DNA of 43,291 bases from Bacillota bacterium. Lineage in GTDB: Bacteria; Bacillota; Clostridia; Peptostreptococcales; Anaerovoracaceae. Made by a program: the position numbers and the translations under genes. Shown piece by piece: positions 10,068 to 33,393 of the stretch. The stretch covers positions 1-43,291 of the forward strand of contig JAFRVY010000039.1 in NCBI GenBank assembly GCA_017438285.1, written 5' to 3'. The stretch's first letter is position 1. The number at the start of each line of letters is the position of its first letter. The notes beneath the pieces are model-generated. The model worked only from the letters and a program-made list of their open reading frames with translations, had not been told where the DNA came from and made no database searches.

Positions 10068-10080
10068 TTAGATTATCTAA
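10068..10080. promoter_or_regulatory. FabT-like operator at the fab transcription start
   Basis: TTAGATTATCTAA is a perfect palindrome around a single central base. It resembles the FabT/MarR box known from Gram-positive fab promoters (TTTGATTATCAAA-like), differing at one symmetric position. It covers roughly +2 to +14 of the predicted transcript, so a bound protein would block initiation. The operon itself encodes a FabT-like MarR protein (15985-16458), the obvious candidate ligand. Site identity is inference from similarity and context. Confidence 0.6.
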
Positions 10081-10147
10081 TTGTTTAGCGCAAATTAGTT
10101 ATTTTAGCACGTTATATTTAATATTGAGAAAAAGAGAGGTAAGAAAC

Positions 10148-10369: not shown

Positions 10370-10409
10370 TACCAGAAGGTAAGGCTTAAGCCAGAAGGAC
10401 GGCAACATT

Positions 10410-11354: not shown

Positions 11355-11373
11355 GATCAGGGAGGAAACACTT

Positions 11374-13019: not shown

Positions 13020-13034
13020 TGAGAGGTAAGATTT

Positions 13035-14270: not shown

Positions 14271-14296
14271 TCTTTGGAAGAGATAGGAGAAAACCG

Positions 14297-14740: not shown

Positions 14741-14752
14741 GGAGACACACAT

Positions 14753-15982
14753 ATGAGCAAAAAACTTGTTATCACAGGCATGGGGGCAGTAACGCCGATC
14801 GGCATCGGCGTCGATGCGTATTGGGAGAACCTCATTGCCGGTAAAACAGGAATCGACTATATAACGAGTATCGACACAGAGGAACTGCCGGTCAAATTTG
14901 CCGGAGAGTGCAGGGAATTCGTAGCTAAGGAATTCATGCCGCGAAAGCTTTCCAGTGAGATGGACAGATTCATGCAGCTGGCATTCGTTGCAGCCAATCA
15001 GGCGATCGAGAACAGCGGCGGAGTCGTTGAACCGTACAGAACGGGTATCACAGTAGGTACCGCGCTGAACGGCATCAAGACCATCACAGAGACGGAGAGA
15101 CAGTATACCAAGTCCGCTTTCAAGAGAGTCGGACCGAGATTTTTGCCGAAATCACTGGGCAACGTCAGTGCCTCACAGATCGCCATCGCAAATGACATCC
15201 ACGGACCGAGCATGACGCTGAACACGGCGTGCGCATCGGGCGGAGACGCCATCACACTGGCATCTTTGATGATCAATGGCGGCATGGCGGACACCATGGT
15301 CGCTGTCGGAGCCGAGTCAGGTACAGAAACGATCCTGATCCAGTCTCTTGCAGGCGCACAGGCACTGTCGGTATTTAACGAGGACCCGAAGAGAGCATGC
15401 AGACCGTTTGACAAGGATAGAGACGGATTCGTTCTTGGCGAAGGCGCAGGCGCTCTGGTCATCGAGACAGAAGAACATGCAAAGGCTCGCGGAGCCAAAA
15501 TCTACGCCTACATTCTGGGCTGTGGAAACAATACCGATGCATATCATCCTGTTACGCCTAGACCTGACGGCGAAGGCGAGATTTTGTGCATGAAACAGGC
15601 TTTGGAGACAGCAGGTATCGGTCTCGAGGAGATCGGATACATCAACGCTCACGGTACGGCGACCATCAAGGGAGATATCGTGGAAAGCGAATCCGTGCGC
15701 GAGGTATTTGGCGATCATGCGGACAACATCGTTCTGAACTCGACAAAGGCCGCAACGGGGCACATGATGGGCGCTGGCGGAATCACGGAAGTGATCACCT
15801 GCGTTAAGGCTCTGGAAACAGGTCTCGTCGCTCCGACGCTGAACCTTGAGAACAAGGATCCTGAGTGCAACCTCAATTACGTATCAGAACTGACTAAGGT
15901 CGAAGGCCTGAAGTATGCCATGTCCAATGCATTTGGATTCGGCGGACAGAATTCCAGCATCATCGTTGGAAAGTATGAGTAG
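14753..15982 (+). CDS. fabF: 3-oxoacyl-ACP synthase, second divergent copy
   Basis: A 409-residue beta-ketoacyl synthase II-type enzyme. The nucleophile Cys is in NTACASGGDAIT near residue 163; the catalytic histidines lie in NAHGTATIKGD and STKAATGHMMGAGG. These motifs differ from the first copy (GTATIKGD against GTGTPLND; KAATGHMMGAGG against KSMTGHMLGGTG), so this is an old paralog and not a recent duplicate. It lies between fabZ and the MarR regulator. In other Bacillota a dedicated KS next to a dehydratase serves unsaturated fatty-acid synthesis (FabN/FabO). That role here is only a suggestion. Confidence 0.9.
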   Translation: MSKKLVITGMGAVTPIGIGVDAYWENLIAGKTGIDYITSIDTEELPVKFAGECREFVAKEFMPRKLSSEMDRFMQLAFVAANQAIENSGGVVEPYRTGITVGTALNGIKTITETERQYTKSAFKRVGPRFLPKSLGNVSASQIAIANDIHGPSMTLNTACASGGDAITLASLMINGGMADTMVAVGAESGTETILIQSLAGAQALSVFNEDPKRACRPFDKDRDGFVLGEGAGALVIETEEHAKARGAKIYAYILGCGNNTDAYHPVTPRPDGEGEILCMKQALETAGIGLEEIGYINAHGTATIKGDIVESESVREVFGDHADNIVLNSTKAATGHMMGAGGITEVITCVKALETGLVAPTLNLENKDPECNLNYVSELTKVEGLKYAMSNAFGFGGQNSSIIVGKYE

Positions 15983-16459: not shown

Positions 16460-17818
16460 ATGAGCAGAATAAGGTTTTATGCTGCACTGTATATTTCCAA
16501 GATACTGTCTTTCGGGATAAATCTTGTGGCGAAAGGGCGCGGAACGAATCTTCCGGGCTCTATTGCAATTAAAATAGACCCGGCGTTCATCAGCCATATC
16601 AAAGGACTGGACCCTGACAACACCATTTTTGTCACGGGCACCAACGGCAAGAGTACGACGACAAATCTCATGGCTCATGTCTTTGAAACGGCGGGAATCA
16701 AGGCCGCCGTCAATCTTGCGGGAGCCAACCTCATCGGCGGAGCTGTCGTGACGCTTCTGAAAAACGTCAGCCTCGGCGGACGTCTGAAGACGGATGTAGT
16801 GCTCCTTGAGACAGACGAGAGGTTTTTGCCGATCATCAGGGAACAGCTGCCGGCGAAGCACATCTGCGTGACCAACATCCAGAAGGATCAGGTGCAGAGA
16901 AACGGTGAACCGGACATCATCTGGCGAAAGATCGCATCGGCGCTGGATGACGATGTGACGCTCTATGTCAACGGCGATGAGCCTAACGCTCTGAGCCTGG
17001 GACGTACGGCAGGAAAGTGTGTGACTTACGGCGTCGACAAGAACAGTTCTTCCTTCGATAAAGAGGACGATTTCTTCTCGGTGACCATGCCGTGTCCGGT
17101 CTGCCACGAACCGATCGTTTTCGACAAATACAATATCGACAACATCGGCCCGTTCCACTGTCCGAGCTGCGGTTTCGGCGCTGCGAAGAACGACTATCAG
17201 GCCTATGATGTCGATTTTGAGAACAAGACATTCTGCGTAGACGGCGCTGCATATGATTTCAAGTACAGCACGCCGTATTTCCTCTATTGCTATGTGGGCG
17301 CGCTGGCACTGGCCAGAGAGTTCAACATTCCGGAGGGAAAGATCAGCAAGGCCTTTGAGGACTTCGTCAATGTCGGCGGCAGGATGGAGGACATCGTGGC
17401 CGGCGGCAAGACCATCAAATACCTGAGAATGAAGCAGGAGAACCCTGAGACGGTGCAGTCTGCCATCAATGTCATCGCAGACGATCCGGAAGAGAAACTC
17501 TTCCTGCTTGGGCTCGATGAACTTGTGGATTTCGATCCGCATTACACGAACACCTTCTACACATATGACTGCGATTTCAGACGGCTGATCGCATCCAACG
17601 TGGGAAGATGTATCTGTTTCTCGGGAACTGTTGCCTATGACGCAGCTCTGAGAATGCTCTATGACGGGTTCGATCCGGACAAGCTCACGATTCTTCCGAC
17701 CAATGACGACAAGGCGATCATCGATGAATTGGCGAAATACGATATCAACAACGTGTATCTGATTACCTGGCTGCACAAATTCGAGTCTCTGGCCGAATAT
17801 GCAAAGGCTCACATGTAA
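16460..17818 (+). CDS. murT: MurT-like Mur ligase family protein
   Basis: A 452-residue ATP-dependent Mur-ligase-fold protein resembling MurT, the subunit that with GatD amidates D-Glu of lipid II. Seen are the ATP loop GTNGKSTTTNLMAHVF near residue 61, NLAGANLIGG, VVLLETDERFLPII, VTNIQKDQ and a MurT-type zinc ribbon CPVCHEP...FHCPSCGF near residues 211-236. The C-terminal DUF1727 region contains GLDELVDFDPHY and YDCDF, where canonical MurT has a DGRDVSWIWDxDFE pattern that includes the triad Asp. So the Asp is kept but the surroundings are diverged. It starts 1 base after fabT, with gatD immediately behind it. Confidence 0.8.
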   Translation: MSRIRFYAALYISKILSFGINLVAKGRGTNLPGSIAIKIDPAFISHIKGLDPDNTIFVTGTNGKSTTTNLMAHVFETAGIKAAVNLAGANLIGGAVVTLLKNVSLGGRLKTDVVLLETDERFLPIIREQLPAKHICVTNIQKDQVQRNGEPDIIWRKIASALDDDVTLYVNGDEPNALSLGRTAGKCVTYGVDKNSSSFDKEDDFFSVTMPCPVCHEPIVFDKYNIDNIGPFHCPSCGFGAAKNDYQAYDVDFENKTFCVDGAAYDFKYSTPYFLYCYVGALALAREFNIPEGKISKAFEDFVNVGGRMEDIVAGGKTIKYLRMKQENPETVQSAINVIADDPEEKLFLLGLDELVDFDPHYTNTFYTYDCDFRRLIASNVGRCICFSGTVAYDAALRMLYDGFDPDKLTILPTNDDKAIIDELAKYDINNVYLITWLHKFESLAEYAKAHM

Positions 17819-18670
17819 ATGGTGAATGATATGAATAACTTTGAGAAATTCAACAGAATAAGAAGTGATGCCGACAGAAACAGGCTTGAGATCAGCAATG
17901 AGACGGAAGTCTCCGGCAGCAACGGATTCAGGTTTTTACATATCCTGTGGCTGTATCCGGATGTTCTGAACATTCACGGCGGGCGCGGCGATATCATGGG
18001 ACTCATGCACATCTGCAACATGCTGGATATTCCAGTTGAAATCAGACGCTGGGACAGCATGAAAGAGGATATTCCATATGATTGGGCCGACATGATCTAT
18101 CTGAACAGCGGAGAACTCAAATGCGCCGGCGACGTGGCAAAGGCCATGGGAAGGCAGCGTGCCCAGCTGGATGCTTATGTAGCAAGGGGCGGGTACATCA
18201 TCGCCACCGCAAGCAGCGGTGCGATCCTGGCGAAGTATACGGAGAAACTTGACGGCTCGGTCGTGAAAGGCCTTGGACTCCTCGATATGGAGTGGAAAGA
18301 GCGCGCGTCCGTATGGGGCGATGACATCTGGTTTAAGACCGAAGATGGTCAGGAAGTAATCGGCAACCAGATCCAGGTGGCCGATGTTCTCCTCCATGCG
18401 GGACAAAAGCCTTTGGGAACAATCATCTATGGTAGAGGCAACCACGGCAGCTTTGACGAGGGCGCAAGACGCGGCAACGTGATTTTCACCAGCTGTTTGG
18501 GACCGTTCGTCACGAAGAACCCGAAGTACGTTGCCGGACTTCTTGCAGATGCGGCCGAAAGGTCTGGAATCAAGGTAACGAAGACCCTTGCGGACGATGA
18601 TATCGAAATCGAAACAGAGTCTGCCAAATATATCAAAAACTTCATGCTGGATAAGATGAAAAACAAGTAG
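17819..18670 (+). CDS. GatD-like class I glutamine amidotransferase lacking catalytic Cys and His
   Basis: A 283-residue protein with the GatD layout: YPDVLNIHGGRGDIMGL near residues 46-62, DGSVVKGLGLLD near 146-156 and GPFVTKNP near 228-235. Canonical GatD has ICGGYQ(L/F)LG with the nucleophile Cys just before the DG...GLG(I/L)LD segment. Here that stretch is IATASSGAIL, with Ala131 or a Ser where Cys belongs and no Cys nearby. Canonical LHGPxLPKN carries the triad His; here it is CLGPFVTKN, so Leu227 replaces His. The protein therefore probably cannot hydrolyse glutamine. It follows murT with no gap; an internal Met at 17831 is an alternative start. Family placement is good; activity and role are unknown. 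Confidence 0.75.
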   Translation: MVNDMNNFEKFNRIRSDADRNRLEISNETEVSGSNGFRFLHILWLYPDVLNIHGGRGDIMGLMHICNMLDIPVEIRRWDSMKEDIPYDWADMIYLNSGELKCAGDVAKAMGRQRAQLDAYVARGGYIIATASSGAILAKYTEKLDGSVVKGLGLLDMEWKERASVWGDDIWFKTEDGQEVIGNQIQVADVLLHAGQKPLGTIIYGRGNHGSFDEGARRGNVIFTSCLGPFVTKNPKYVAGLLADAAERSGIKVTKTLADDDIEIETESAKYIKNFMLDKMKNK

Positions 18671-18750: not shown

Positions 18751-18827
18751 GGCGGTGTAGCTTAGTTGGCTAGAGCGTCCGGTTCATACCCGGAAGGTCG
18801 GTGGTTCGACTCCACTCGCCGCTACCA
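18751..18827 (+). tRNA. tRNA-Met (CAU), elongator type
   Basis: A 77-base cloverleaf with encoded CCA. Anticodon loop TTCATAC gives CAU. The anticodon stem is TCCGG/CCGGA and lacks the three consecutive G-C pairs of initiators, so this is elongator Met. Positions 1-72 form a G-U pair. First tRNA of the six-gene array. Confidence 0.9.
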
Positions 18828-18831
18828 AAGT

Positions 18832-18907
18832 GGGCGCTTAGCTCAGCTGGGAGAGCACCTGCCTTACAAGCAGGGGGTCACAGGTTCGAGCCCTGTAGCG
18901 CCCACCA
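18832..18907 (+). tRNA. tRNA-Val (UAC)
   Basis: A 76-base cloverleaf with encoded CCA. Acceptor GGGCGCT pairs with AGCGCCC; the anticodon loop CTTACAA gives UAC. TTCGAGC is the T-loop region. It starts 4 bases after tRNA-Met. Confidence 0.93.
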
Positions 18908-18918
18908 AAAACAATCGC

Positions 18919-18995
18919 GGTCCGGTAGTTCAGTTGGTTAGAATGCCAGCCTGTCACGCTGGAGGTCGACGGTTCGAGCCCGTTCCGGATCGCCA
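18919..18995 (+). tRNA. tRNA-Asp (GUC)
   Basis: A 77-base cloverleaf with encoded CCA. Acceptor GGTCCGG pairs with CCGGATC (one G-U), discriminator G. Anticodon loop CTGTCAC gives GUC. Confidence 0.93.
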
Positions 18996-19033
18996 ATTTT
19001 TACCGGGAGAAGTTTAGAGACCTCTCCCTTTAT

Positions 19034-19108
<75 letters not shown>

Positions 19109-19148
19109 TCCCTTATGGGAGGCTCCACTTGGAGCAACTAAATAATGT

Positions 19149-19225
19149 GGTGGGTATAGTCAAGTGGTTAAGACAGCGGGTTGTGGCTCCGTTATGCGTG
19201 GGTTCGAATCCCACTATCCACCCCA
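19149..19225 (+). tRNA. tRNA-His (GUG)
   Basis: A 77-base cloverleaf with encoded CCA. Anticodon loop TTGTGGC gives GUG. The His-specific extra G at position -1 (19149) pairs with the discriminator C, so it is encoded in the DNA. Confidence 0.93.
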
Positions 19226-19250
19226 TTTTTTTAGGGAAATTCAATAGCGT

Positions 19251-19325
19251 TGGGGTATCGCCAAGCGGTAAGGCAACGGATTCTGATTCCGTCATGCGCA
19301 GGTTCGAATCCTGCTACCCTAGCCA
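19251..19325 (+). tRNA. tRNA-Gln (CUG)
   Basis: A 75-base cloverleaf with encoded CCA. Acceptor TGGGGTA pairs with TACCCTA (U1-A72, discriminator G, both Gln identity features). Anticodon loop TTCTGAT gives CUG, reading only CAG, so a UUG isoacceptor must exist elsewhere. Confidence 0.92.
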
Positions 19326-20076: not shown

Positions 20077-20093
20077 TATAAACCGGCATATAA

Positions 20094-20294
20094 CCGGTTC
20101 AGACATTCGCCTATGTGGACCTGACAACCTTATTATGGTATTACTTAAAGCATCAGAAACTGATCACCAGAGGTACGATAGTTGGATTCAAATACAATGA
20201 GTACCAGGTGCAGATCCGCGCCTTCACGAAGGCCAATGGCGACCTCTATAGCGGCGCATGGAGCAAGGTGAAGATCACAAAGAAGATCAAATAA
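20094..20294 (+). pseudogene. Remnant of a fibronectin type III domain (C-terminal end of a surface protein)
   Basis: This frame is open from 20094 to a TAA at 20292-20294 but has no start codon with a ribosome site. Its last part reads FKYNEYQVQIRAFTKANGD then LYSGAWSKVKITKKIK. That is the terminal strand pair of Fn3 domains as found in clostridial surface proteins (YxVxIRAY...G..Y.GxWSxxKxVK). The upstream residues (FAYVDLTTLLWYYLKHQ) do not look like Fn3, so the domain is cut. This is a decayed end of a once longer gene, left by deletion or rearrangement next to the accessory cluster. Confidence 0.55.
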
Positions 20295-20315
20295 TCGCAT
20301 GAATCAGTAAGAAAG

Positions 20316-20340
20316 ATGATCCCGGCAATGCCGGGATCAT
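20316..20340. terminator. Hairpin between convergent units
   Basis: ATGATCCCGGC (20316-20326) and GCCGGGATCAT (20330-20340) form a perfect 11-bp stem with a 3-base loop. It contains the stop codon of the minus-strand ATP-grasp gene and would act mainly on that strand, where CTTTCTTAC follows. T-richness is modest on both sides. Confidence 0.6.
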
Positions 20341-21503
20341 TCTCTATATTTGCGGATATCCTTATTGACGGTCCAAAAGCCGCGGGCCTGAAGCCCTTCC
20401 ATGCTCCGCCGGTGAAAGTAATCTTCCAGTATCCAGTCTGTCATCTCTCCGAAGAGGGGACGTCCGCTGACTCTCTGCGCATGGTCTCCCGGCGTGGAAT
20501 TGAGTTCGATCAGAAGTGGGTCGCCATCCTGATCCATCGTAAAGTCCCAGCCGATCCACTTGAAATGGCCGACTCTCGGATGGATCCGGCGAACCGTCTC
20601 AAGCATCTTTCCGATGCACGGGATAACGAAGTCTTCATCATAGAGGCCAGCATCGTGGGCGTTGATCCAGTAGCCTTCGTCGTGACAGGCCTTTGCGTGA
20701 ACGTGGCCGTCCGGAAAGATCTCAGCATTGTACTCTTCACCGACCACCACGTGGGTCGAACTGGAAGCTCCAAGTCTTAAATACACCTGCGGGATGTGGA
20801 TGCAGCCCTGCAGAAACAGTGACAGCACCCTGATGGTACAAACGTTATTCGGACTCACCGCCTCCAGAGTCTGGTGCTGAACTATCTTCTCCTGCACGAT
20901 GAAGTTTTGTCCGGTCTGAGCGAAATACTCCCTGATCTGCGCATCGTCGCATTTGGACGGGTCAAATCGCCTGACACCGTTTCCAAAGCCGCTGTATAAG
21001 GACGGTTTTATGAAGAGTTCACCGCCGCTTTTCGTACAGAGACTTACCGCATCCGTCTCCTGAATCAGATCCATATTGCCGTCGTAATACTCTCCGGCGA
21101 TTTTGCGGCATACGGTCTTCGCCTGCTTCACATCAGGGAACCGAAGTTCCAGATAGTTTTTGTCTTCCAAAGCCCAGCGAAAGGGCAGATTATTCATGTA
21201 TGGAAGCAGTTCAAGATAATATAGATCCGATGGGATGAAACGCGGATCCATTTTCTGCTCACGGCTGCCAGCAAGCTCGAACCAGAACTGTCTGGGCTGT
21301 CTGCCGAACTGCTGCCAGTAAGGCAGTACGGACTCAATATATTCTTCCGCCCGCGATCTAAGGTCCCAACCATCCGTCATAGATTTTGCCAGGGCACGGT
21401 TAGAGGTTTCCATCCTGTTTCTGTGATATCTGTTTTTTGTGTTGATCGCTGTCCTGAGGGACATGCTGTACAGCAGTCTGTTTAAGGTGTTTCCAATTCC
21501 CAT
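20337..21503 (-). CDS. Sugar-transfer associated ATP-grasp protein (copy A)
   Basis: A 388-residue ATP-grasp protein of the type associated with sugar-transfer loci (PF14397-like). Landmarks: VLPYWQQFGRQPRQFWFELAG near residue 60-80, DPRFIPSDLYY, GGELFIKPSLYSGFGNGV (ATP-binding lysine and loop), NFIVQEKIVQH, NNVCTIRVLSLF, and the metal site GWDFTMDQDGDPLLIELNSTPG. Such enzymes couple ATP to carboxylate activation and usually form amide bonds; the acceptor is unknown. It is a clear paralog of the protein at 22806-23942, including the shared C-terminal F(G)xxTDWILEDYF. It is the last gene of a three-gene minus-strand operon, 40 bases after the PP-loop gene. Confidence 0.8.
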   Translation of the reverse strand: MGIGNTLNRLLYSMSLRTAINTKNRYHRNRMETSNRALAKSMTDGWDLRSRAEEYIESVLPYWQQFGRQPRQFWFELAGSREQKMDPRFIPSDLYYLELLPYMNNLPFRWALEDKNYLELRFPDVKQAKTVCRKIAGEYYDGNMDLIQETDAVSLCTKSGGELFIKPSLYSGFGNGVRRFDPSKCDDAQIREYFAQTGQNFIVQEKIVQHQTLEAVSPNNVCTIRVLSLFLQGCIHIPQVYLRLGASSSTHVVVGEEYNAEIFPDGHVHAKACHDEGYWINAHDAGLYDEDFVIPCIGKMLETVRRIHPRVGHFKWIGWDFTMDQDGDPLLIELNSTPGDHAQRVSGRPLFGEMTDWILEDYFHRRSMEGLQARGFWTVNKDIRKYRE

Positions 21504-21543
21504 ACTGCTTCACTCTCTTTCTTTTTAGCAATCTTTTTTTGAA

Positions 21544-22806
21544 CTATTGCGTTATCGCATCGTATATTGACCGGAACAGCCGTCCGGCATCGTTATCGTA
21601 TTTATTCGCCAGCTGCAAAATCTGCTGAACGCTTTCTCTGGCAGAACTCGCCTCCGGACGCTGCGAGAAAAGAATCAGATCCTTGTACACATCTTCGCGC
21701 TCCGAATAGTATTTATTAAGATTGAAACTCTCTTCGAACTTATCCAGCTTGCCGATGATATCGAGAGGGATCATCGTTTTCATGCAGGCATAGCATCTGC
21801 CGCAGTTTTCCCCGTGCGGGCCGGTATCGTAGCAGACGGCGACGTATTTCTGCACGTCTTCATCGTCGACCAGTGCTTCCAGTTTTTCCGGCCTGGATGC
21901 GTCATCGCTTGTAACATAATGCAAAGTCTCCGTCTGACAGCAGTCACAGAGCAGCCCCTCATAATGCTGAGTCGGTACAGTCAGCGAGGCTTCCACCATA
22001 TTGCTGTCGTGACCGGACGATGAACTGATATATGTACTGTACAAAGGCTCCAGAGCCAGTGTGCACGCCAGAAATCTGTACATGGATCCGTAGATTCTGC
22101 CGCCTCTGTAAAAATCCTCATCCAGGTTTGACCTCATGACGATCAGAGGCAGATCATGATGATTTGCTATGCTTTTCGCATGGTCGATGATGTGCGAAAA
22201 AACCTGTTCCTTTTCCCTGTAGATCGCGTTGATGTCGTAAGGCGGTTCCAGAAAAGGAAGCAGATAATTGCAGTCATAGTATGCTAGGTGTGTGAGTCGC
22301 TTGCCTCCTGGCGTGTCCGGACGGTCGTAGCAATGCAGCGTATAGAGTGAATCCACACCGCAGGACATTCCTGTCAGCACGCCCCCTGCGCACTCGATCG
22401 GTTCACCGGTCACCGGCCCATCGAGCCGTATTTGGTTCTGCATGAGGGCAGGGATAAGCTTTTGCGTAAGCCCGTCATAGAGCTTGCGGGACATTGGCGC
22501 TTCGAAACGTATGTCAGATTCGGTGATCATGGCGTACCAGAGCATTGCGATCACAAAGGCGTTGCTGCGCTCCGTGGACAGATACTCCGCATATTGCGAA
22601 GGGGCGGAGAACCACAGATTGCAGTCTTCATCCTGCCATACGGCCGGCGGATAATCGAAGGCCGTCAGCCACGCGGTGTTCTTCAGAGGAGCGGTCTTTT
22701 CGAGATATACCCGGACCGTATCCTTTGATATGTGCACCGGTGCCCGCAGGTATGTCGTGTCATTTTCTGTTGTAATATATGGTTTACCTATAGTAATCAT
22801 TTTCAT
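21544..22806 (-). CDS. QueC-like PP-loop ATPase of unknown substrate
   Basis: A 420-residue protein. The PP-loop is GMSCGVDSL at residues 146-154 (canonical SGGxDS). A QueC-type zinc motif C-x9-C-x2-C-x2-C is formed by Cys325, 335, 338 and 341 (CGRCYACMKT), and another cysteine group, CDCCQTE, lies before it. QueC-type enzymes adenylate a carboxylate and convert it to amide or nitrile, or ligate it. The 145-residue N-terminal region is not part of QueC and I do not recognise it. I placed the start at 22806, where ATG overlaps the stop of the upstream gene (TGATG); a longer in-frame start would overlap by 40 bases. It sits between two paralogous ATP-grasp genes. Substrate unknown. Confidence 0.72.
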   Translation of the reverse strand: MKMITIGKPYITTENDTTYLRAPVHISKDTVRVYLEKTAPLKNTAWLTAFDYPPAVWQDEDCNLWFSAPSQYAEYLSTERSNAFVIAMLWYAMITESDIRFEAPMSRKLYDGLTQKLIPALMQNQIRLDGPVTGEPIECAGGVLTGMSCGVDSLYTLHCYDRPDTPGGKRLTHLAYYDCNYLLPFLEPPYDINAIYREKEQVFSHIIDHAKSIANHHDLPLIVMRSNLDEDFYRGGRIYGSMYRFLACTLALEPLYSTYISSSSGHDSNMVEASLTVPTQHYEGLLCDCCQTETLHYVTSDDASRPEKLEALVDDEDVQKYVAVCYDTGPHGENCGRCYACMKTMIPLDIIGKLDKFEESFNLNKYYSEREDVYKDLILFSQRPEASSARESVQQILQLANKYDNDAGRLFRSIYDAITQ

Positions 22807-23942
22807 CAATAAATCAGTACGTCCTGGCGGTGGTTCTGTTCCCATGTGCGGTGCAGGAAATAGTCCTCCAGGATCCAGTCGGTCTTATCGCCGAAGATCG
22901 GCTTGCAGCAGGTAAGCTGTGAACAGTCGATGCCCGGGAAGATGTTGAATTCGATCAGGATCGGATCTCCGTCTTCATCGACGGCAAAATCCCAGCCGAT
23001 GCATTTGAAATGAGCCATCCTCGGGTGGATGCGCTTGACTTCATCGCAAACTTTATCCATGGAAGGAACCATGAAATTGTCGTCAAAAGGCGCATTCTTC
23101 TGATCGATCCATGCTCCGTTGTTGTCGTAAACCTTCGGATACAGTTTTCTGTCTTCAAGTATCTCAGCATAGAAGCCGCCGTCATGCATGGATACATACG
23201 GCATGTCAGGGCTGCTGACGCGAAGCACCGCGCTCTCGACCGACACCTTGTCATCCAGAAGGAGTGACAGGATACGGATAGTGCTGACGGAAGACGGATT
23301 GATCTTTTCTATCTGCGGATGCTGCTTTATCTGCTCCTGAACGATAAAGGAAGAACCGGCATCTCTGAAGATACCGCTAATATCCTCATCCGTGCATGAA
23401 TCAGGTTCAAAAACAGTTATGCCTTTGCCGCCTTTGGAACCGGTGGAGCGCTTCAAAAACAGCGTGCCTCCGCGTTCACGGCACAGACCGATGAGAGTGT
23501 CCTCACTGATAATGTTCCTCTTCGCATCCGTGTAGACGCCTTCGATGTTCAGGGCGACCGTTTCAGGTCTCTTCACATCGCTGAAAAGGTAGTCCAGATA
23601 GCCTTTATTCATGAGACCGTGCTGCTGCATCCCGTTGTTCATATACGGCAGAATGTCGTTATAGTACAGATCTGCAGGCATAAAACGCGGGTCCATCCTG
23701 TGATCACGGGAGCCGTACAGATCAAACCACATCTGTTTCGGAGACTGTCCGAACTTTTTCCAATAAGGCAGCACTTCCTGCTCATATGCCAGTTGACGCT
23801 GCTCCTCGTCCCAGTCACTAAGATCGAGACGGTCGAGCAGGGACGAAGACTCCCGCTCCAGGGCATCCGCCAGATAGATTTTTTTTGTTTCTACGGCATT
23901 CTGAAATGCCGAATTATAGTTTTCTTCATATTTCTGGATCAT
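22806..23942 (-). CDS. Sugar-transfer associated ATP-grasp protein (copy B)
   Basis: A 378-residue paralog of the protein at 20337-21503. Matching landmarks are VLPYWKKFGQSPKQMWFDLYG, DPRFMPADLYY, GGTLFLKRSTGSKGGKGI (a Gly-rich ATP loop), SFIVQEQIKQH, SSVSTIRILSLL and GWDFAVDEDGDPILIEFNIFPG. I use the Met at 23942 and not upstream in-frame codons, because it matches the N-terminal length of copy A and lies right behind a consensus promoter. The likely transcript start falls on this ATG, so the mRNA may be leaderless. It is the first gene of the minus-strand operon and its stop overlaps the PP-loop start. Confidence 0.8.
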   Translation of the reverse strand: MIQKYEENYNSAFQNAVETKKIYLADALERESSSLLDRLDLSDWDEEQRQLAYEQEVLPYWKKFGQSPKQMWFDLYGSRDHRMDPRFMPADLYYNDILPYMNNGMQQHGLMNKGYLDYLFSDVKRPETVALNIEGVYTDAKRNIISEDTLIGLCRERGGTLFLKRSTGSKGGKGITVFEPDSCTDEDISGIFRDAGSSFIVQEQIKQHPQIEKINPSSVSTIRILSLLLDDKVSVESAVLRVSSPDMPYVSMHDGGFYAEILEDRKLYPKVYDNNGAWIDQKNAPFDDNFMVPSMDKVCDEVKRIHPRMAHFKCIGWDFAVDEDGDPILIEFNIFPGIDCSQLTCCKPIFGDKTDWILEDYFLHRTWEQNHRQDVLIY

Positions 23943-23948
23943 GTCTGT

Positions 23949-23977
23949 ATAATACCACACCGTAAACCCATGCTCAA
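23949..23977 (-). promoter_or_regulatory. Minus-strand promoter of the ATP-grasp/PP-loop operon
   Basis: Reading the minus strand, TTGAGC (23977-23972) and TATTAT (23954-23949) are 17 bases apart. Six bases (ACAGAC) separate the -10 from the ATG at 23942, so transcription should begin at or within a base or two of the start codon. No ribosome-binding sequence is present between them. Confidence 0.6.
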
Positions 23978-24000
23978 CGGGTGCAGGCTTTTGCATACTG

Positions 24001-24009
24001 TGATAAAAT
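24001..24009 (+). promoter_or_regulatory. Extended -10 promoter of the GT2 operon
   Basis: TGATAAAAT (24001-24009) is an extended -10 (TGN before TAAAAT). It lies 7 bases ahead of the ATG at 24017, again leaving no room for a leader. No clear -35 is visible. Together with the minus-strand promoter it fills the 74-base divergent gap. Confidence 0.5.
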
Positions 24010-24016
24010 ATTGGAT

Positions 24017-25417
24017 ATGAAAACACTACTGTCGATAATAATACCTACATATAATTGCGAGGAATTCGTTCACGAAGGAATCGAGTCAATTCTGCGCCAG
24101 CTGCCGGACGACTACGAGCTGATCATCGTAGACGACGGTTCCACCGACGGGACCGTGCAAAGGCTTGCGGATTACGAAGGCCGCCAGGCCAACGTTCATA
24201 TCTTTTATGGTGAGCACAAAGGCGCATCTGCTGCGAGAAATACTGGCCTCGATATGGCGACCGGAGAGTTCGTGGCATTCATGGACTGTGACGACTGTAT
24301 ACGTGATGATTTCTTCGAGCAGAGCAGACCCCTGATGGACGAAGGCGCGGACCTGTACATCTTTGGGATCGAGCGCGTTCACCTGCAGGGAAACAGCGAA
24401 TTCTGGACCGTCCGGGATCACCGTTACGAAACCGCATCGGATTTTGCGGATGAGTATATCAGGACGAGACAGCTTCTGGTCTATTCAAACTGCAACAAGT
24501 TTTACCGCAGGAGCATTTTGGAGGAACATAAGCTGAGATTCCGAGAGGATATCGCATTCGGTGAGGACCGTCTGCTCAATTACTATTTCCTCTCGTACTG
24601 CGGAACTATCGTTACATCTTCATTGATAGCACTGAGATATATTCAGCGAAGCAATGAGTCCATGTCCAACAAATATGTGCCGCATTACTTTGATCAAATC
24701 CTGATGCTTCACTTAGAAAAAATGAAGTGTTTCCTGAATCTTTCGAAGGGGACCGATCATGAAGAGCGCATGGATTTCGTGGCATACGATCTGTCGACGG
24801 AAATTGAAAGAACGCTGGAGCGTTTCGGTGAACATCCGGAAGAGAGGGAAGAAAATCTGCCGAGGATCAACGAGATCGTCTTTGGCGGCAAGTTTGACCC
24901 TGACGTTCCTATAGATACATTGATCATTCTGGGCAGTACCAACTGCGAATACAAGGCTGCGCAGGCCCTGCCGTTTTTCTACAAGAACCCTGAACTGCGG
25001 TTTGTCGTCAGTGGCGGAAATATCCACTTGAACGGCAGGCAGACCGAGGCGGAGTTCATGGCCGAATATCTGCAAAAGCACGGCGTGCCGGAGTCCCAGA
25101 TCTATCTGGAAAACAGAGCGAAATATACGAAACAGAATCTGGAGTTTTCCGAAGGCGTCGTCCACGAGATAAAGGCGGAAAAAATCGGCATCATGACCGG
25201 CGGTTTCCATATCCCGCGCACGAAGATACTTGCAAGACAGACGGGTGCCTTTGAAGGAAAAGAAATCCATTGGCTTCCGGCCTTTGGGCCAAACACCCAT
25301 ATTGATGACTGGTTTGAAAACCCGACGGGACTGTCGGTCATCTTACAGGAAATAAGAAAGACGATCAAACTGGATGATTACATTCTCACAATGTACATGG
25401 AGGAACATAAGAAATGA
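24017..25417 (+). CDS. GT2 glycosyltransferase fused to a DUF218 (YdcF-like) domain
   Basis: A 466-residue two-domain protein. Residues 1-240 are a family 2 glycosyltransferase: LLSIIIPTYNCEEFVHEGIES, LIIVDDGSTDGT, GASAARNTGLDMATGE, the DxD-type FMDCDDC and GEDRLLNYY. A helical linker leads to a DUF218 domain at about 300-466: DTLIILGSTNCEYKAAQ, RFVVSGGN, TEAEFMAEYLQKHGVP, LENRAKYTKQNLEFS and IMTGGFHIPRTK. DUF218 proteins (YdcF, SanA, ElyC) act in envelope metabolism, but here there is no membrane segment. The start MKTLLSIII fits the fold. The stop overlaps the PIG-L gene by 4 bases, so the two are coupled. It probably transfers a sugar whose product is trimmed by that deacetylase. Confidence 0.82.
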   Translation: MKTLLSIIIPTYNCEEFVHEGIESILRQLPDDYELIIVDDGSTDGTVQRLADYEGRQANVHIFYGEHKGASAARNTGLDMATGEFVAFMDCDDCIRDDFFEQSRPLMDEGADLYIFGIERVHLQGNSEFWTVRDHRYETASDFADEYIRTRQLLVYSNCNKFYRRSILEEHKLRFREDIAFGEDRLLNYYFLSYCGTIVTSSLIALRYIQRSNESMSNKYVPHYFDQILMLHLEKMKCFLNLSKGTDHEERMDFVAYDLSTEIERTLERFGEHPEEREENLPRINEIVFGGKFDPDVPIDTLIILGSTNCEYKAAQALPFFYKNPELRFVVSGGNIHLNGRQTEAEFMAEYLQKHGVPESQIYLENRAKYTKQNLEFSEGVVHEIKAEKIGIMTGGFHIPRTKILARQTGAFEGKEIHWLPAFGPNTHIDDWFENPTGLSVILQEIRKTIKLDDYILTMYMEEHKK

Positions 25418-26517
25418 GAGAAGAAATCATATTTCAGCCTGATGATAGAATAGCCATCATCGCACCACATCCTGACGACGAGTGCCTGGGAGTGGCTGCG
25501 GCATTGCTTAAGGCTCCGGAAAGGACGGATGTGTTTGTGCTGACCGACGGCAGCCACGGCTACCCGGGCCGCACCATAGAAGAGGAAGCCGAAGTAAGGC
25601 GCAGACAGTTCGAGGCGGAGATGGAATATGTGAAGCCGCGTTCATGGAAGTGGATAGGCGTTGAAGATACGAAACTCGCCGAGCACCAGGACGCTGCGGA
25701 TGAGATCGATTTTACCGTCTACACGAAGATCTTTCTTCCGTGGATAGAAAGCCTGCATCCGGATCACAGAGCGGCGGTGCAGATCTGCCGCACGGCGATC
25801 AAGAAGCAAAAGGCTCAGGCCGAGTGCTTTTCATACGAAGTGAACGCGCCGTTCTATAAACCAACACATTACGTGGATCTTACGGGGCTGGAGGAAGAGA
25901 AACTCAAGCTGGCTGCATTCCATGAGGATCAGAGCGAGCAGCCACCGATGACACTGGCGCTGAACCGCTTCCGCGCTGCTCAGATGCTCAAGCGCGAGGA
26001 TTTGAAGTGCATGGAATGCTACCTGAAGATCGATCCGTACGACCTGTCGGAGGCGCCGGATCTTCTGGCGAAACTGTACGAGATCAACGACGATCCTGCA
26101 ATAATGCAGCGCATGACCGATCAGGGTGTCCAGATCAAACAGGTCATGCCTATGAATACGACGAAAGTATATAACTTTATCAAAGATAATTTTGCGGCCA
26201 CATGGGCTGATGAGTGTCTACCGTCCATCCTGAACGGGGACTGCTTCGTGGCCGTTAAAGATAGAGAACTGCTTGGGTTTTTTGCCATCGATACGCCGGC
26301 AAAGGGCTTTACCGGTCCGATAGGCGTCCTGCCATCCGCCCGCAGAATGGGCATTTCACGCGCCCTGGGCCTGGTGGGAATGAAGGCCATGAGAGCCAAG
26401 GGCTACCGATACGCGGTATCGGGCAGAGTCCACCCGTGGTTCCAGACAGTGGAAAAAAGTATTGTAGGAGTAGTGCCGATTCCGAACAGCAAAGGCTCCT
26501 ATTCTGATATGATCTGA
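25414..26517 (+). CDS. PIG-L deacetylase fused to a GNAT acetyltransferase
   Basis: A 367-residue bifunctional protein. The N-terminal PIG-L/LmbE domain carries IIAPHPDDECLG with the zinc-binding HPDDE at residues 19-23, and the second metal site LHPDHRAAV near residue 115. These are the residues that deacetylate GlcNAc conjugates in relatives (MshB, BshB, PIG-L). From about residue 250 a GNAT domain follows: FIKDNFAATWADECL, GDCFVAVKDRELLGFFAID, GPIGVLPSARRMGISRALGL (acetyl-CoA loop R-R-x-G-x-S) and AMRAKGYRYAV. A deacetylase and an N-acetyltransferase in one chain suggests acyl exchange on an amino sugar. It overlaps the neighbours on both sides (ATGA and TGATG). Confidence 0.82.
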   Translation: MREEIIFQPDDRIAIIAPHPDDECLGVAAALLKAPERTDVFVLTDGSHGYPGRTIEEEAEVRRRQFEAEMEYVKPRSWKWIGVEDTKLAEHQDAADEIDFTVYTKIFLPWIESLHPDHRAAVQICRTAIKKQKAQAECFSYEVNAPFYKPTHYVDLTGLEEEKLKLAAFHEDQSEQPPMTLALNRFRAAQMLKREDLKCMECYLKIDPYDLSEAPDLLAKLYEINDDPAIMQRMTDQGVQIKQVMPMNTTKVYNFIKDNFAATWADECLPSILNGDCFVAVKDRELLGFFAIDTPAKGFTGPIGVLPSARRMGISRALGLVGMKAMRAKGYRYAVSGRVHPWFQTVEKSIVGVVPIPNSKGSYSDMI

Positions 26518-28256
26518 TGATTGAAAACAATTACGCTTTAGAACCGAATAACATGGAAATAGTCTTCCGACGAAAGGGGACGCTGACGAGCAGAAAACTG
26601 CAGGAATATATTCCTGTCATGATTCTGACGAATATGTCAGTGTTTCTTTTGGCGACCGTAGACGGACTGGTGGCAGGTAATATGATCAGCGGGAAAGCGC
26701 TGGCTGCGATCAATATCTTTTTCCCTGCGATGGTAATAATCTCCGTCATTTCGGCGCTGGTGGCTTCCGGCTGCGCAACCAGCATGGCTACCTGTATGGG
26801 AAGAAACGATGTGGAGGCGATCCGCCGCACAAAGAAAGCCGTAAAAATAGTGATGATCTCGGCTGCATTATTCACCGCAATCGTCCAGTTCCCGATCATG
26901 TATGCCGTCATCCATTCTTATGATCTTACACCCGAGGTCAGAGACATGGCGTGGGCATATTCCGCCGGTATCATGATCGCCATGCCTCTCGGACTCATAT
27001 CCTCGGTCGGCTCTTATCAGCTGCAGATCGCGGGAAAGATGCGGGTGCTGATGGTTTTGTCCCTCATGGAAGGCATCTTGAACACGTTGCTGGATCTGAT
27101 GTTTGCCGGAGCGATGCATATGGGGATAGCAGGTATTGGTCTCGGTACCGCCAGCGCAGCATTTGTCCGTTGCGTAGTTACAATCGTTTATATGATCAAA
27201 AAGACCGATATATTCCGATGCCAGGGCGCAAAGGCCGGATGGGCAGAGATCAAAGACGTTCTGTACTGCGGATGCCCAGATGCCGCAAACATGCTTATGC
27301 TGGCATTTCAGAATTATTTCGTGATGTGGGTCATCCTGTCCGAGTTCGGCGATGTGGGAGGCGTGATCAAGGGCGTCTGTTTCTTTGCGTTCAATGTGGC
27401 CAATATAGTGATATTGGGACTCATGGGTTCAATGCGCCCACTGGCAGGACTGTTGGCCGGCGCGGGAGACACCAGGGCGATGAGAATCCTGATGAGACAG
27501 TGCATATCCGTAACTGTCGTTCTGGTCGGGATCATTTCAATAGTGGTGGAAATATTTCCTGCATTGTTCTATCGTCTGAACGGCGTTACAGACATTCCGG
27601 AAGGCGGAATTCTGTCACTGCGACTGTTCGCGCTGTACTTCATTTTCGCGGGAATCAATTCCTTACTCCGCCTGTACTTCGCCAACCGCAAGGACTCTGC
27701 GGCCGCGACCGGACTGACTATAATAGGAAATGCAACGCTGCCGGTCTTTGCTTTTGCGCTCGGATATTTTCTGCCGTCGCCGTTTCTGTGGCTGGGATTT
27801 CTGATGACGGAGCTTTTGATATTTGCGGTAGGCGAATGCAGATACCTGTGGTGGCTGAAAAAAGATCAGGAGGTAAGCGATCCATCTGAGAGGGTGCTGT
27901 ACCTGAGCGTTCGACCGGAAGAGGCTATCGAGGCATCCAGAATGATCCGCCGCTTTGCCGATGATAATGGCTGCTCCGCCAGAGTCGCTTTCAGAATGGC
28001 GCTGTGTATGGAGGAAATGGTAGCTTACGTGGTACAGTCGCAGAAACAGGATGACGTCAATATCATGATCATGGCAAAATTCAAACCGCAAGAAGGGATT
28101 TTCTGTATGATCGATGACGGTCAGTGCATCGCGCTGGATGAGGACACAGAAACTACCAGGCTGATCACGAACAACTACGGCCTTATGAGGAAATTAGCAA
28201 AATCCGTAGAATATCAGTATGTTCTGAATATGAATTACACTATACTGCGATTTTGA
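26517..28256 (+). CDS. MATE transporter fused to a histidine-kinase-like ATPase (HATPase_c_2) domain
   Basis: A 579-residue protein. Residues 20-450 form about twelve membrane helices of a MATE family antiporter (MILTNMSVFLLATVDGLVAG, ASGCATSMATCMGRND, GIAGIGLGTASAAFVRCVV, LVGIISIVVEIFPALFYRLNG). The last 120 residues are cytoplasmic and resemble anti-sigma/serine-kinase ATPase folds: VRPEEAIEASRMIRRFAD, FRMALCMEEMVAYVV and CMIDDGQ. The usual N-box Asn after EE appears to be Tyr, while DDG of the G1 box is kept, so ATP binding may be altered. The start overlaps the PIG-L/GNAT stop (TGATG). Likely export pump for the cluster's product; the ATPase domain may gate it. Confidence 0.8.
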   Translation: MIENNYALEPNNMEIVFRRKGTLTSRKLQEYIPVMILTNMSVFLLATVDGLVAGNMISGKALAAINIFFPAMVIISVISALVASGCATSMATCMGRNDVEAIRRTKKAVKIVMISAALFTAIVQFPIMYAVIHSYDLTPEVRDMAWAYSAGIMIAMPLGLISSVGSYQLQIAGKMRVLMVLSLMEGILNTLLDLMFAGAMHMGIAGIGLGTASAAFVRCVVTIVYMIKKTDIFRCQGAKAGWAEIKDVLYCGCPDAANMLMLAFQNYFVMWVILSEFGDVGGVIKGVCFFAFNVANIVILGLMGSMRPLAGLLAGAGDTRAMRILMRQCISVTVVLVGIISIVVEIFPALFYRLNGVTDIPEGGILSLRLFALYFIFAGINSLLRLYFANRKDSAAATGLTIIGNATLPVFAFALGYFLPSPFLWLGFLMTELLIFAVGECRYLWWLKKDQEVSDPSERVLYLSVRPEEAIEASRMIRRFADDNGCSARVAFRMALCMEEMVAYVVQSQKQDDVNIMIMAKFKPQEGIFCMIDDGQCIALDEDTETTRLITNNYGLMRKLAKSVEYQYVLNMNYTILRF

Positions 28257-28289: not shown

Positions 28290-28898
28290 ATGAGCGAGGT
28301 AAAACTATTATTTCAGGGTCACGGAAGTTTACGCATCGTGACCGGCGAAAACAAAGTTATATATATCGATCCCTTTGCAGGAAGCGGATACGACCTGCCG
28401 GCGGACCTGATCCTGACCACCCACGATCACTATGATCACGTGTGTCTGGACCTGATCAAAAGCCGCACTGCGGATTGCCGCGTCATCATGCATAAGGAAG
28501 CTCTCAAGACCAAAAACTACGACCTGGGCTATGTCAAGGTCAGGGCGGTGCAGGCCGGAAACAATAAGAATCACAGCATCAGAAAATGCGTTGGTTATGT
28601 ACTGACCTTCGGCGATGGAAAGAAACTTTATGTTTCAGGCGACACGTCCACGACTGACGAGATGAAAACCCTCGCCGCAGATGAGATCGACTATGCGTTC
28701 TTCTGCTGCGACGGCATCTACAATATGGATCTTGATGAAGCTGCCGAGTGCGCAAAAACCGTTGGTGCAAAGCACAACATCCCATATCACATCGTGGATG
28801 CCAAGGACCCGAGTCACTTCAGCATGGAGCGGGCAGAGAGGTTCAACGCACCGAACAGGCTGATCCTGCAGCCGGGAGAGGAACTGACGATCAAATAG
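28290..28898 (+). CDS. MBL-fold metal-dependent hydrolase
   Basis: A 202-residue UlaG/YtnP-like metallo-beta-lactamase-fold protein. The metal motif is THDHYDHV near residue 48, with GHGSLRIVT at the start, GDTSTTDEM (metal Asp) and HFSMERAE at the end. Its own -10 (TATAAT, 28266-28271) and AGAGAGG ribosome site suggest separate expression from the MATE gene, 33 bases upstream. Substrate unknown. It could act on the cluster's product or be a housekeeping neighbour. Confidence 0.8.
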   Translation: MSEVKLLFQGHGSLRIVTGENKVIYIDPFAGSGYDLPADLILTTHDHYDHVCLDLIKSRTADCRVIMHKEALKTKNYDLGYVKVRAVQAGNNKNHSIRKCVGYVLTFGDGKKLYVSGDTSTTDEMKTLAADEIDYAFFCCDGIYNMDLDEAAECAKTVGAKHNIPYHIVDAKDPSHFSMERAERFNAPNRLILQPGEELTIK

Positions 28899-31962: not shown

Positions 31963-33390
31963 ATGATAGATTTGTCGAAATATAAGAGGATACACTGCAT
32001 AGGCATTGGAGGCATCGGCCTCTCTGCTGTTGCAGAAATTTTTATGTCCAGAGGCTATGAGGTTTCTGGATCAGATATGCGAGAGAGCGATATTACCGAG
32101 AAGCTTTTGGACAACGGCGCGAGGATATATCTTGGACACAGAGCCAAGAACGTAGAGGACGCGGATCTTGTCGTATATACGGTAGCGGTGGGTGATGACA
32201 ACCCGGAACTTGCAAGAGCGAGAGAGCTTGGAATTCCAACGATAACCAGAGCGCAGGCTCTCGGTGCCCTGATGGAAGAATATGAGCACAGCATCGCTAT
32301 TTCGGGGACCCACGGCAAGACGACAACGACTTCCATGATCTCACTGATCCTCAAGCACGCGAATCGTCAGCCGACGATTCTGGTCGGCGGCAATCTGGAC
32401 GAGATCAACGGCAACGTTTACGTGGGTGACAGGAACTTTTTCGTCACAGAAGCCTGCGAATACAGGGACAGTTTCCTGGAACTCAGACCGAGCGTCGAAA
32501 TCATACTGAATATCGACTCGGATCATCTGGACTATTTCAAGGATGTGGAACACATCGCCAGGTCCTTCGAGAAATTTGCCCATCTGGTGCCGCCAAACGG
32601 CACAGTTATCGCTTACGACGGCAACGCATTCGTCAAGAGCGTCATAGAGGGAAGTCCGAATGCTGTCACATTCGGTCTCAACTCGGGCAGCGATTATTAT
32701 GCCAGCAACATCAGCTTCAGCAACAACGGAATGCCGCAGTTCGATGTCAATCATGACGGACAGGTGCTCTGCAGAATAGCGTTATCCATTCCGGGAGAGC
32801 ATAACATATTGAACGCCCTTGCAGCCTTTGCATGCTGCTACATTCTGGGCGTGGATCCGGCGGTGATCGTCAGCACGCTCAACGAATTCACGGGGACCCA
32901 CAGGAGATTCGACGTTCTGGGCAGAACGCAGAACAATGTGGGCGTCATCGACGACTACGCCCATCATCCAACGGAGATCAAGGCCACGCTGGCGGCCATC
33001 AAGAAGATGAGACACGAAGAACTCTGGTGCATCTTCCAGCCGCATACCTACACGAGAACGCTGGCTCTGCTGGACGACTTCGCAAGCGCCTTTGACGATG
33101 CAGATAAAATCGTTCTGGCAGAGATCTATCCGGCAAGAGAGAAGAACATTCACAAGATCAGCTCAACGCTGCTGATGGATAAGATCAAGGAGCATGACAG
33201 CTCCAAGGAAGTATATTATTTCAAGGACTTCGATGAGATCGCCGCTTTTGTCTACGCCAATGCACAGCCCGGAGATATGGCGCTGACCATGGGCGCGGGA
33301 GACATCTACAAGGTCGGCGAGATGATGCTTGAGATGGAGAAACCGCAGGCAAAGAAGACCGCAAGAGAATACAAGAAGATAGAGGACTAA
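31963..33390 (+). CDS. murC: UDP-N-acetylmuramate--L-alanine ligase
   Basis: A 475-residue cytoplasmic peptidoglycan ligase adding L-Ala to UDP-MurNAc. N-terminal substrate domain: RIHCIGIGGIGLSAVAEIFMSRG and VSGSDMRES. ATP loop: ISGTHGKTTTTSMIS near residue 111. Further signature parts are EACEYRDSFL, NIDSDHLDYF, HRRFDVLG and DDYAHHPTEI. AGGAGG precedes the ATG. It begins an operon of wall-precursor and housekeeping genes, 3 bases before the glmU-like gene. Confidence 0.97.
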   Translation: MIDLSKYKRIHCIGIGGIGLSAVAEIFMSRGYEVSGSDMRESDITEKLLDNGARIYLGHRAKNVEDADLVVYTVAVGDDNPELARARELGIPTITRAQALGALMEEYEHSIAISGTHGKTTTTSMISLILKHANRQPTILVGGNLDEINGNVYVGDRNFFVTEACEYRDSFLELRPSVEIILNIDSDHLDYFKDVEHIARSFEKFAHLVPPNGTVIAYDGNAFVKSVIEGSPNAVTFGLNSGSDYYASNISFSNNGMPQFDVNHDGQVLCRIALSIPGEHNILNALAAFACCYILGVDPAVIVSTLNEFTGTHRRFDVLGRTQNNVGVIDDYAHHPTEIKATLAAIKKMRHEELWCIFQPHTYTRTLALLDDFASAFDDADKIVLAEIYPAREKNIHKISSTLLMDKIKEHDSSKEVYYFKDFDEIAAFVYANAQPGDMALTMGAGDIYKVGEMMLEMEKPQAKKTAREYKKIED

Positions 33391-33393
33391 GAG

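Follow-up and report, generated by a model that had tools for sequence, protein, structure and literature searches.

A divergent six-gene locus encoding ATP-grasp ligases, a PP-loop enzyme, and fused sugar-modifying and exporter proteins in a clostridial genome

We describe here a cluster of six genes at positions 20337 to 28256 of contig JAFRVY010000039.1 (C112) from a Bacillota bacterium of the family Anaerovoracaceae (GenBank assembly GCA_017438285.1). The whole stretch analyzed, called the window below, is 43,291 nucleotides long and belongs to a genome of 1.65 Mb in 126 contigs that is 80% complete. The cluster consists of six open reading frames (ORFs), all uninterrupted, at the coordinates given in a preliminary description made from the sequence. 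Families were assigned with Pfam, which was run on eight proteins in and around the cluster; the GNAT and HATPase assignments fall under their cut-offs. The features are as follows.

20337..21503, minus strand: ATP-grasp ligase A (ATPgrasp_ST), 388 aa; Pfam PF14397, E 2e-19
21544..22806, minus strand: PP-loop (AANH) enzyme with a QueC-type four-cysteine site, about 420 aa; listed ORF reaches 22845
22806..23942, minus strand: ATP-grasp ligase B (ATPgrasp_ST), 378 aa; Pfam PF14397, E 2e-23
24017..25417, plus strand: GT2 glycosyltransferase-DUF218 (ElyC/YdcF-like) fusion, 466 aa; Pfam PF00535, E 5e-37, and PF02698, E 2e-19
25414..26517, plus strand: PIG-L deacetylase-GNAT-like fusion, 367 aa; Pfam PF02585, E 1e-12
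26517..28256, plus strand: MATE exporter with a degenerate GHKL (HATPase-like) tail, 579 aa; Pfam MatE, E 2e-15
23943..24016, no strand: gap between the divergent operons, start codon to start codon, 74 bases
20315..20341, no strand: bidirectional terminator-like hairpin at the end of the minus-strand operon; strong, 11-12 pairs, reported on both strands, consensus match only

Coordinates and Pfam matches bear out the arrangement first proposed, with six ORFs in two divergent operons. The minus-strand operon is transcribed in the order ATP-grasp B, PP-loop enzyme, ATP-grasp A, and the plus-strand operon in the order GT2-DUF218, PIG-L-GNAT, MATE with tail. With starts at 23942 (ATP-grasp B) and 24017 (GT2-DUF218), the gap between them is most likely 74 bases, as claimed. 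Overlaps within the operons were found for GT2-DUF218/PIG-L (4 bases), PIG-L/MATE (1 base), and ATP-grasp B/PP-loop enzyme (junction TGATG, 1 base if the latter starts at 22806), and not for the PP-loop enzyme and ATP-grasp A, which are spaced by 40 bases. The PP-loop gene probably does start at 22806 (M14, matching its relatives), so that the overlap is 1 base instead of 40. The guanine-plus-cytosine content of the cluster is not distinct from that of its flanks, and the Rfam scan returned tRNAs only.

The PP-loop enzyme carries the motif SCGVDS at residue 161 and the cysteines C338, C348, C351, and C354 (C-x9-C-x2-C-x2-C), 177 residues apart from the motif. The Escherichia coli QueC protein has SGGQDS and C-x8-C-x2-C-x2-C about 179 residues apart (counted by eye). 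We retain the earlier QueC-like assignment because of the SxGxDS motif and the four-cysteine site, a QueC-type pair at QueC-type spacing in which a zinc site is predicted from sequence only. The Pfam QueC model itself is not reached (E 0.049, 13.6 bits against a cut-off of 22), no Pfam match lies above its cut-off, and NCBIfam gives no match. Across 12 aligned PP-loop sequences, G163, D165, and the four cysteines are invariant and S161 is nearly so; the last serine of the motif is replaced by alanine in related loci L010 and L020 and by cysteine in L014. The cysteines common to all 12 form this one C-terminal site, and TtcA-like iron-sulfur cysteines (CxxC plus a distant C) are absent. An hhalign comparison with E. 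coli QueC aligned the cysteine site only (20 columns, probability 4%), a PDB search with the PP-loop profile gave no PP-loop chain and a single irrelevant match (E 0.15), and PADLOC, run for known anti-phage defence such as the QueC-like QatC, gave hits at chance level only (E 0.04). At L030 (3604-4818), the first ~50 residues of an ORF look like an anti-sigma-type HATPase start and the rest is the PP-loop enzyme; this gene lies 3′ of SpoIIE/STAS-like genes (by eye), and the fusion may be natural or an assembly chimera.

ATP-grasps A and B are 41% identical to each other and pass the PF14397 gathering cut-off of 31.4 with 70 and 84 bits, respectively. D320, E333, and N335, which we take to be the ATP-grasp metal ligands, are unchanged across an alignment of five ATP-grasp sequences (A2) that includes A and B. 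A PDB search with the ATP-grasp returned D-Ala-D-Ala ligase (E 0.003) and, at about 0.5, TTL. ATP-grasp A is 58% identical to L021:7271-8467 and is its sister in the tree (support 1.00), and ATP-grasp B is not sister to the second ATP-grasp of L021. Elsewhere in the window's own genome (G000), the A2 profile has six further distant ATP-grasp matches, on contigs C13, C58, C80, C83, and C84 (E 1e-20 to 5e-12).

In the GT2-DUF218 fusion, the GT2 motifs MDCDD and FGEDR are invariant in all eight aligned sequences (the window protein and seven relatives), and the DUF218 part has conserved blocks. In the proposed PIG-L-GNAT fusion, the PIG-L half has PHPDDE and HPDH invariant in 3/3 aligned sequences and PDB matches to chains named diacetylchitobiose deacetylase (E 2e-7); the GNAT match is weak, just under the Pfam cut-off (E 6e-4, 20.5 bits against 20.7). 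The exporter first described as MATE-HATPase likewise keeps its MatE domain, and its tail is sub-threshold (HATPase_c_2, E 0.0024, 18.3 bits against 27.4) and degenerate. The N-box Asn is replaced by Tyr (EEMVAY or a near variant) in all seven cassette-type MATE members aligned and is retained in the divergent MATE tail of L042 (EEMAGN). The tail is probably a pseudo-GHKL domain, not an ATPase. Catalytic motifs are intact in the ATP-grasps, PP-loop enzyme, GT2, and PIG-L of the window. PHROGs matches were to generic glycosyltransferases and, for the PIG-L and MATE proteins, to families of unknown function.

The preliminary description drew a parallel with mycothiol and bacillithiol assembly, under which the product would be a low-molecular-weight thiol or a comparable cofactor inside the cell. 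The enzyme types and their order do match those pathways: glycosyltransferase, PIG-L deacetylase, amino-acid ligation, acetyltransferase. MshA and BshA are GT4 enzymes, whereas the window has a GT2 fused to DUF218, together with ATP-grasps, a PP-loop enzyme, and an exporter. The PIG-L protein hits BshB2 and BshB1 weakly (E 5e-5 and 6e-5), its 23.0 and 22.8 bits lying far under their cut-offs of 195.25 and 182.5. No GT4 or cysteine-ligase family (BshC/MshC) occurs among the six proteins, the rest of the genome not having been searched; furthermore, the exporter is the most constant partner in the related loci, and the distribution is rare and patchy. The parallel is unsupported beyond shared enzyme types, and a thiol product is quite unlikely.

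A graspetide-like ribosomally synthesized and post-translationally modified peptide was also considered, in which the ATP-grasps would cross-link a precursor peptide that is then acetylated and exported; two ATP-grasps, a GNAT-like domain, and an exporter resemble the microviridin set. No convincing precursor ORF was found (intra-operon gaps are ≤40 bases, the central gap is 74, and ORFs of ≥20 aa in 20077-20336 are noise-like), and the ATP-grasp family is ATPgrasp_ST. This reading is disfavored, and we would be surprised to see it confirmed.

All six genes recur in L021, from the clostridial metagenome-assembled genome (MAG) RUG12442 (G838), in one operon on one strand. Their order differs from that in the window: AMP-binding enzyme, 76-aa carrier protein, ornithine/diaminopimelate-type pyridoxal phosphate (PLP) decarboxylase, ATP-grasp, ATP-grasp, PP-loop enzyme, GT2-DUF218, MATE with tail, PIG-L-GNAT. 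The carrier protein matches PP-binding at E 8e-5, the AMP-binding enzyme reaches 315 of 317 bits for AA-adenyl-dom, and the decarboxylase 174 of 298 bits for lysA. In the window's genome, at its 80% completeness and in a search without a positive control, no match to the L021-type decarboxylase was found; AMP-binding matches there are distant only. The gene content of the other loci is as follows.

L010: PP-loop, MATE, GT2-DUF218
L011: Mur ligase, ATP-grasp, split PP-loop, MATE, GT2-DUF218
L024: GT2-DUF218, MATE, PP-loop, pyruvoyl Arg decarboxylase, in succession
L069: GT2-DUF218, ATP-grasp, MATE
L068: GT2-DUF218, MATE, second MATE; radical SAM gene five genes past GT2-DUF218
L070: DUF218 end only of the GT2-DUF218 gene seen, split MATE, ATP-grasp
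L071: internally deleted MATE, split Mur ligase, truncated GT2-DUF218
L067: GT2-DUF218 adjoining an A-PCP-C nonribosomal peptide synthetase (NRPS) module, glutaminase, another MATE, Transgly/Amidase_2 protein
L042: divergent MATE-tail and PIG-L without GNAT
L041: PIG-L-GNAT; the other five not on its 6-kb contig

A MATE-tail exporter lies in nine of ten GT2-DUF218 loci (8 full-length), with 0-3 ORFs between: the window, L010, L011, L021, L024, L068, L069, L070, and L071, the tenth locus being L067. For several of these loci, the PP-loop or ATP-grasp gene was what led to their discovery; counting only genomes from the GT2-DUF218 search itself, the linkage is 7/8. Close PP-loop relatives (6 genomes) and GT2-DUF218 (8 genomes) coincide in 5 among 345 family genomes (Fisher P 8e-9, a value that ignores relatedness, all but the window's genome being of one genus, leaves three weak PP-loop hits uncounted, and presupposes that the 345 genomes of the GT2-DUF218 search include all six with a close PP-loop relative). 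A second count covered ten clostridial PP-loop loci (the window, L010, L011, L020, L021, L022/L071, L023, L024, L028, and L030), with distant hits and L031 omitted. A cassette-type MATE is present in 8 (truncated or deleted in L020, L022/L071, and L030) and GT2-DUF218 in 6 (truncated in L022/L071, where it shares the contig at a distance of about 12 kb); the contigs of L020 and L023 are <4 kb, and absences there carry little weight. As judged from these gene neighborhoods, the constant core is the exporter with the glycosyltransferase fusion, while the amide-forming modules (ATP-grasp, PP-loop, carrier/decarboxylase, and NRPS) vary.

We treat the six genes as a functional unit because they occur complete but rearranged in L021/G838 and in part elsewhere; strict conservation of all six as a set is not supported. 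A chance neighborhood of unrelated genes would fit the finding that the set is complete in two loci only. It is refuted for the core by the reassembly of all six in L021 in a different order and by the GT2-DUF218/MATE-tail linkage, and is possible for single members; as an account of the whole locus, it deserves almost no credence. At L068 (13697-17186), the neighborhood of GT2-DUF218 and the two MATE genes includes a radical SAM/SPASM protein and a protein that matches ATPgrasp_ST very weakly (E 0.007). The run at L067 (312-11692) comprises a racemase-like gene, glutaminase, MATE, the A-PCP-C module, GT2-DUF218, GT2, and the Transgly/Amidase_2 protein, and is possibly a separate biosynthetic cluster.

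PP-loop relatives, counted at E≤1e-3 with the window's own genome included each time, were found in 2/100 relatives, 9/349 family genomes, 6/393 order genomes, and 2/398 phylum genomes. Close relatives (51-57%) come from five genomes of one other genus (G372, G385, G828, G829, and G838); the sole further match of the family scan from the window's own genus, in G036, is 31% identical. PIG-L-GNAT (E≤1e-20) was found in 4/345 genomes, one of which (G341) lacks the GNAT part, and GT2-DUF218 (E≤1e-60) in 8/345, seven of them in the same other genus as the close PP-loop relatives. A scan of genome contigs gave 48 stretches matching a pattern, 10 encoding a relative; the MAGs with those 10 are named as Clostridiales, Lachnospiraceae, Mogibacterium, Ruminococcus, and Prevotellaceae, with sheep gut sections given for three. 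The MAG codes RUG and SIG presumably denote ruminant-gut sets, and the source bacterium is probably from the gut. The closest PP-loop relative, 71% identical, is at a contig end (L023), 3′ of a beta-lactamase-family gene. Phages gave no PP-loop relative at E≤1e-5, and a 29% identical relative is carried on two Paracoccus yeei plasmids, in a catabolic neighborhood in the one examined. The family is rare and patchy, and its modules recombine.

The cluster begins about 1 kb past an array of tRNA genes that sits 3′ of GatD.

18751..19325, plus strand: six-tRNA array (Met-Val-Asp-Cys-His-Gln) upstream of the cluster; tRNA scan

GatD was matched in 8/18 congeners, and 7/8 of these regions were compared, 4 of them with a tRNA scan. 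The same array stands 3′ of GatD in L089, L092, and L094; L090 ends about 130 bases past GatD, and L091, L093, and L095, which lay outside the tRNA scan, end within 600 bases of it. L089 ends at the array, and past tRNA-Gln there are ParA/ParB-like genes in L092 and a recombinase-like gene in L094 (by eye). The array is an apparent insertion hot spot, and the pattern suits acquisition of the cluster there. Downstream, a metallo-beta-lactamase-fold gene (28290-28898) lies 33 bases 3′ of MATE and might be co-transcribed with it; it was excluded from the cluster because it is not adjacent to the cluster in L021. This gene was tried as a flank marker and rejected: it was found in 5/29 genomes, the window's own included, and in the 4 congeners no other tested window genes lie beside it.

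From the gene content, conserved motifs, and linkage observed, and with reaction steps inferred from family chemistry, we favor, at roughly even confidence, a modular, horizontally mobile locus whose product, a small aminosugar conjugate carrying amide-linked groups, would be made and then exported. GT2-DUF218 would transfer an N-acetylhexosamine-type sugar onto an acceptor, and PIG-L would strip the N-acetyl group to leave a free amine. The two ATP-grasps would turn carboxylates into acyl phosphates and join them, through one or two amide bonds, to that amine or to the growing chain, and the PP-loop enzyme would, in the manner of QueC, adenylate a carboxylate (or amide) and convert it to an amide or a similar group. 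Capping of an amine by acylation would fall to the GNAT-like domain, and export of the product to the MATE protein, with its dead GHKL tail serving as a regulatory or protein-binding part. Relatives may supply the same core with a decarboxylated amino acid on a carrier (adenylation enzyme, carrier protein, and PLP decarboxylase), and others may draw on an NRPS module or, possibly, on agmatine (pyruvoyl Arg decarboxylase). That the decarboxylases of L021 (PLP) and L024 (pyruvoyl) belong to unrelated families suggests amine building blocks. More tentatively, and with well under even confidence, gut anaerobes may use these loci to make modular glyco-aminoacyl natural products of a class not described before. 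GT2-DUF218 and the pseudo-GHKL MATE would be the exchangeable core, the ATP-grasp, QueC-like PP-loop, carrier/decarboxylase, and NRPS modules would be swapped between strains, and the exported variant would differ from strain to strain.

Several observations weigh against the exported aminosugar conjugate. The complete set is confined to the window and L021, and among the ten clostridial PP-loop loci (several on short contigs), ATP-grasp occurs in 3 and PIG-L-GNAT in 2; the genome G385, which has PP-loop, MATE, and GT2-DUF218, has no ATP-grasp of the A2 profile at E≤1e-10 anywhere. Several relatives look decayed, with PP-loop split in L011, the motif serine replaced by alanine in L010/L020, deletions in L022/L071, and an L020 MATE cut short and followed by transposase-like ORFs (by eye). 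At E≤0.01, Pfam recognizes neither GNAT in the L021 PIG-L protein nor HATPase in the MATE proteins from L021, L069, and L024; in relatives, these domains were assigned by alignment to the window proteins. The ATP-grasp, PP-loop, and GT2-DUF218 trees disagree on the closest relative of the window; modules seem to have been exchanged between loci, and the parts may therefore not make one constant product. The donor sugar is proposed only by type (N-acetylhexosamine-type), and the acceptor only in general terms. Acquisition at the tRNA array, which the pattern suits, is weakened by the lack of an integrase among the eight proteins scanned with Pfam and by an undefined insertion boundary.

The strongest competing explanation is a surface-glycan module, in which a lipid-linked or polymeric surface sugar would be built, or decorated with amide-linked amino acids, and flipped by the MATE protein (MOP superfamily) as by Wzx/MurJ. 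It takes up the glycopeptide or surface-aminoglycan alternative raised in the preliminary description, and we regard it as possible, clearly less probable than the exported conjugate. Three of the six distant PP-loop loci (L012-L016 and L031) lie in surface-polysaccharide-like clusters (L012, L014, and L031), which favors a surface product. In L031 (Prevotellaceae), four matches to the ATP-grasp profile (E 9e-58 to 8e-12) come after a PP-loop gene of 40% identity, in a cluster with PGA_cap and flippase-like and sugar-transferase-like genes (by eye), and the PP-loop genes of L012 and L014 adjoin flippase-like and glycosyltransferase-like genes (by eye). An opine-dehydrogenase-family gene lies upstream in the L031 cluster (10001-15850). 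In L067, the Transgly/Amidase_2 protein is two genes past GT2-DUF218, and DUF218 is described as ElyC-like and exopolysaccharide-linked (PMC12419801). The distant PP-loop genes in L013 and L016 are outside glycan-like clusters, and L015 is too short to judge. The window shares the ATPgrasp_ST family with surface-polysaccharide clusters, as well as the PP-loop and ATP-grasp pairing of L031, but its six genes include no polymerase, Wzx, or initiating transferase; nor did the family searches with the six window proteins and the L021 operon hit an initiating transferase, polymerase, or O-antigen ligase.

A non-canonical thiotemplate pathway like that of closthioamide would have the PP-loop enzyme install thioamides on carrier-bound peptides made by the ATP-grasps. 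The cta genes include the AANH enzyme CtaC, the ATP-grasp CtaD, carrier proteins, and the decarboxylase CtaF (PMC6772006). The pairing of AANH/PP-loop enzyme and ATP-grasp is common to both, and L021 adds a carrier protein and a decarboxylase. CtaC, however, carries a TtcA-like iron-sulfur motif in place of the QueC-type cysteine site found here, and the passages covered name no sugar enzymes for the closthioamide genes; the window has sugar enzymes and no carrier protein among its six genes. We consider this pathway unlikely.

In the aminoglycoside butirosin, the side chain is assembled by BtrI/BtrJ/BtrK, and a PIG-L deacetylase takes part in the pathway. Decarboxylation by BtrK and carrier attachment are mentioned in PMC2922099. 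L021 resembles that system in combining ATP-grasp, carrier protein, PLP decarboxylase, and sugar enzymes; it differs in GT2-DUF218, PP-loop enzyme, and MATE-tail exporter, and the six window genes include no carrier or decarboxylase (deoxystreptamine genes were not searched for). The AMP-binding enzyme and decarboxylase of L021 also match the exosortase-A-associated ligase and decarboxylase (TIGR03098/TIGR03099; E 7e-47 and 9e-50), far under the cut-offs (160 of 592 and 170 of 478 bits) and less well than AA-adenyl-dom and lysA; exosortase genes were not looked for. Canonical NRPS differ in that Pfam finds no condensation, adenylation, or carrier domain among the six window proteins; adenylation and carrier occur in L021 and A-PCP-C in L067. 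No description of the six-gene set was found among open-licence papers, in agreement with the earlier statement that no described pathway with it is known.

If the exported conjugate is the correct reading, ruminant-gut clostridia possess a group of related small biosynthetic loci with a PP-loop enzyme outside named families, ATPgrasp_ST and GT2-DUF218 proteins of unknown substrate gain a first context, and the six-gene set becomes a concrete target for heterologous expression. The QueC-like enzyme family occurs beside both metabolite-like and surface-glycan-like genes. Around the cluster, ORF translations identified by eye as MurT/GatD-like precede it (16460-18670) and MurC/GlmU-like ones follow it (31963-34095). 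A Mur ligase gene is also directly 5′ of ATP-grasp in L011 or of GT2-DUF218 in L071, and in L022 another lies 3′ of the PP-loop gene.

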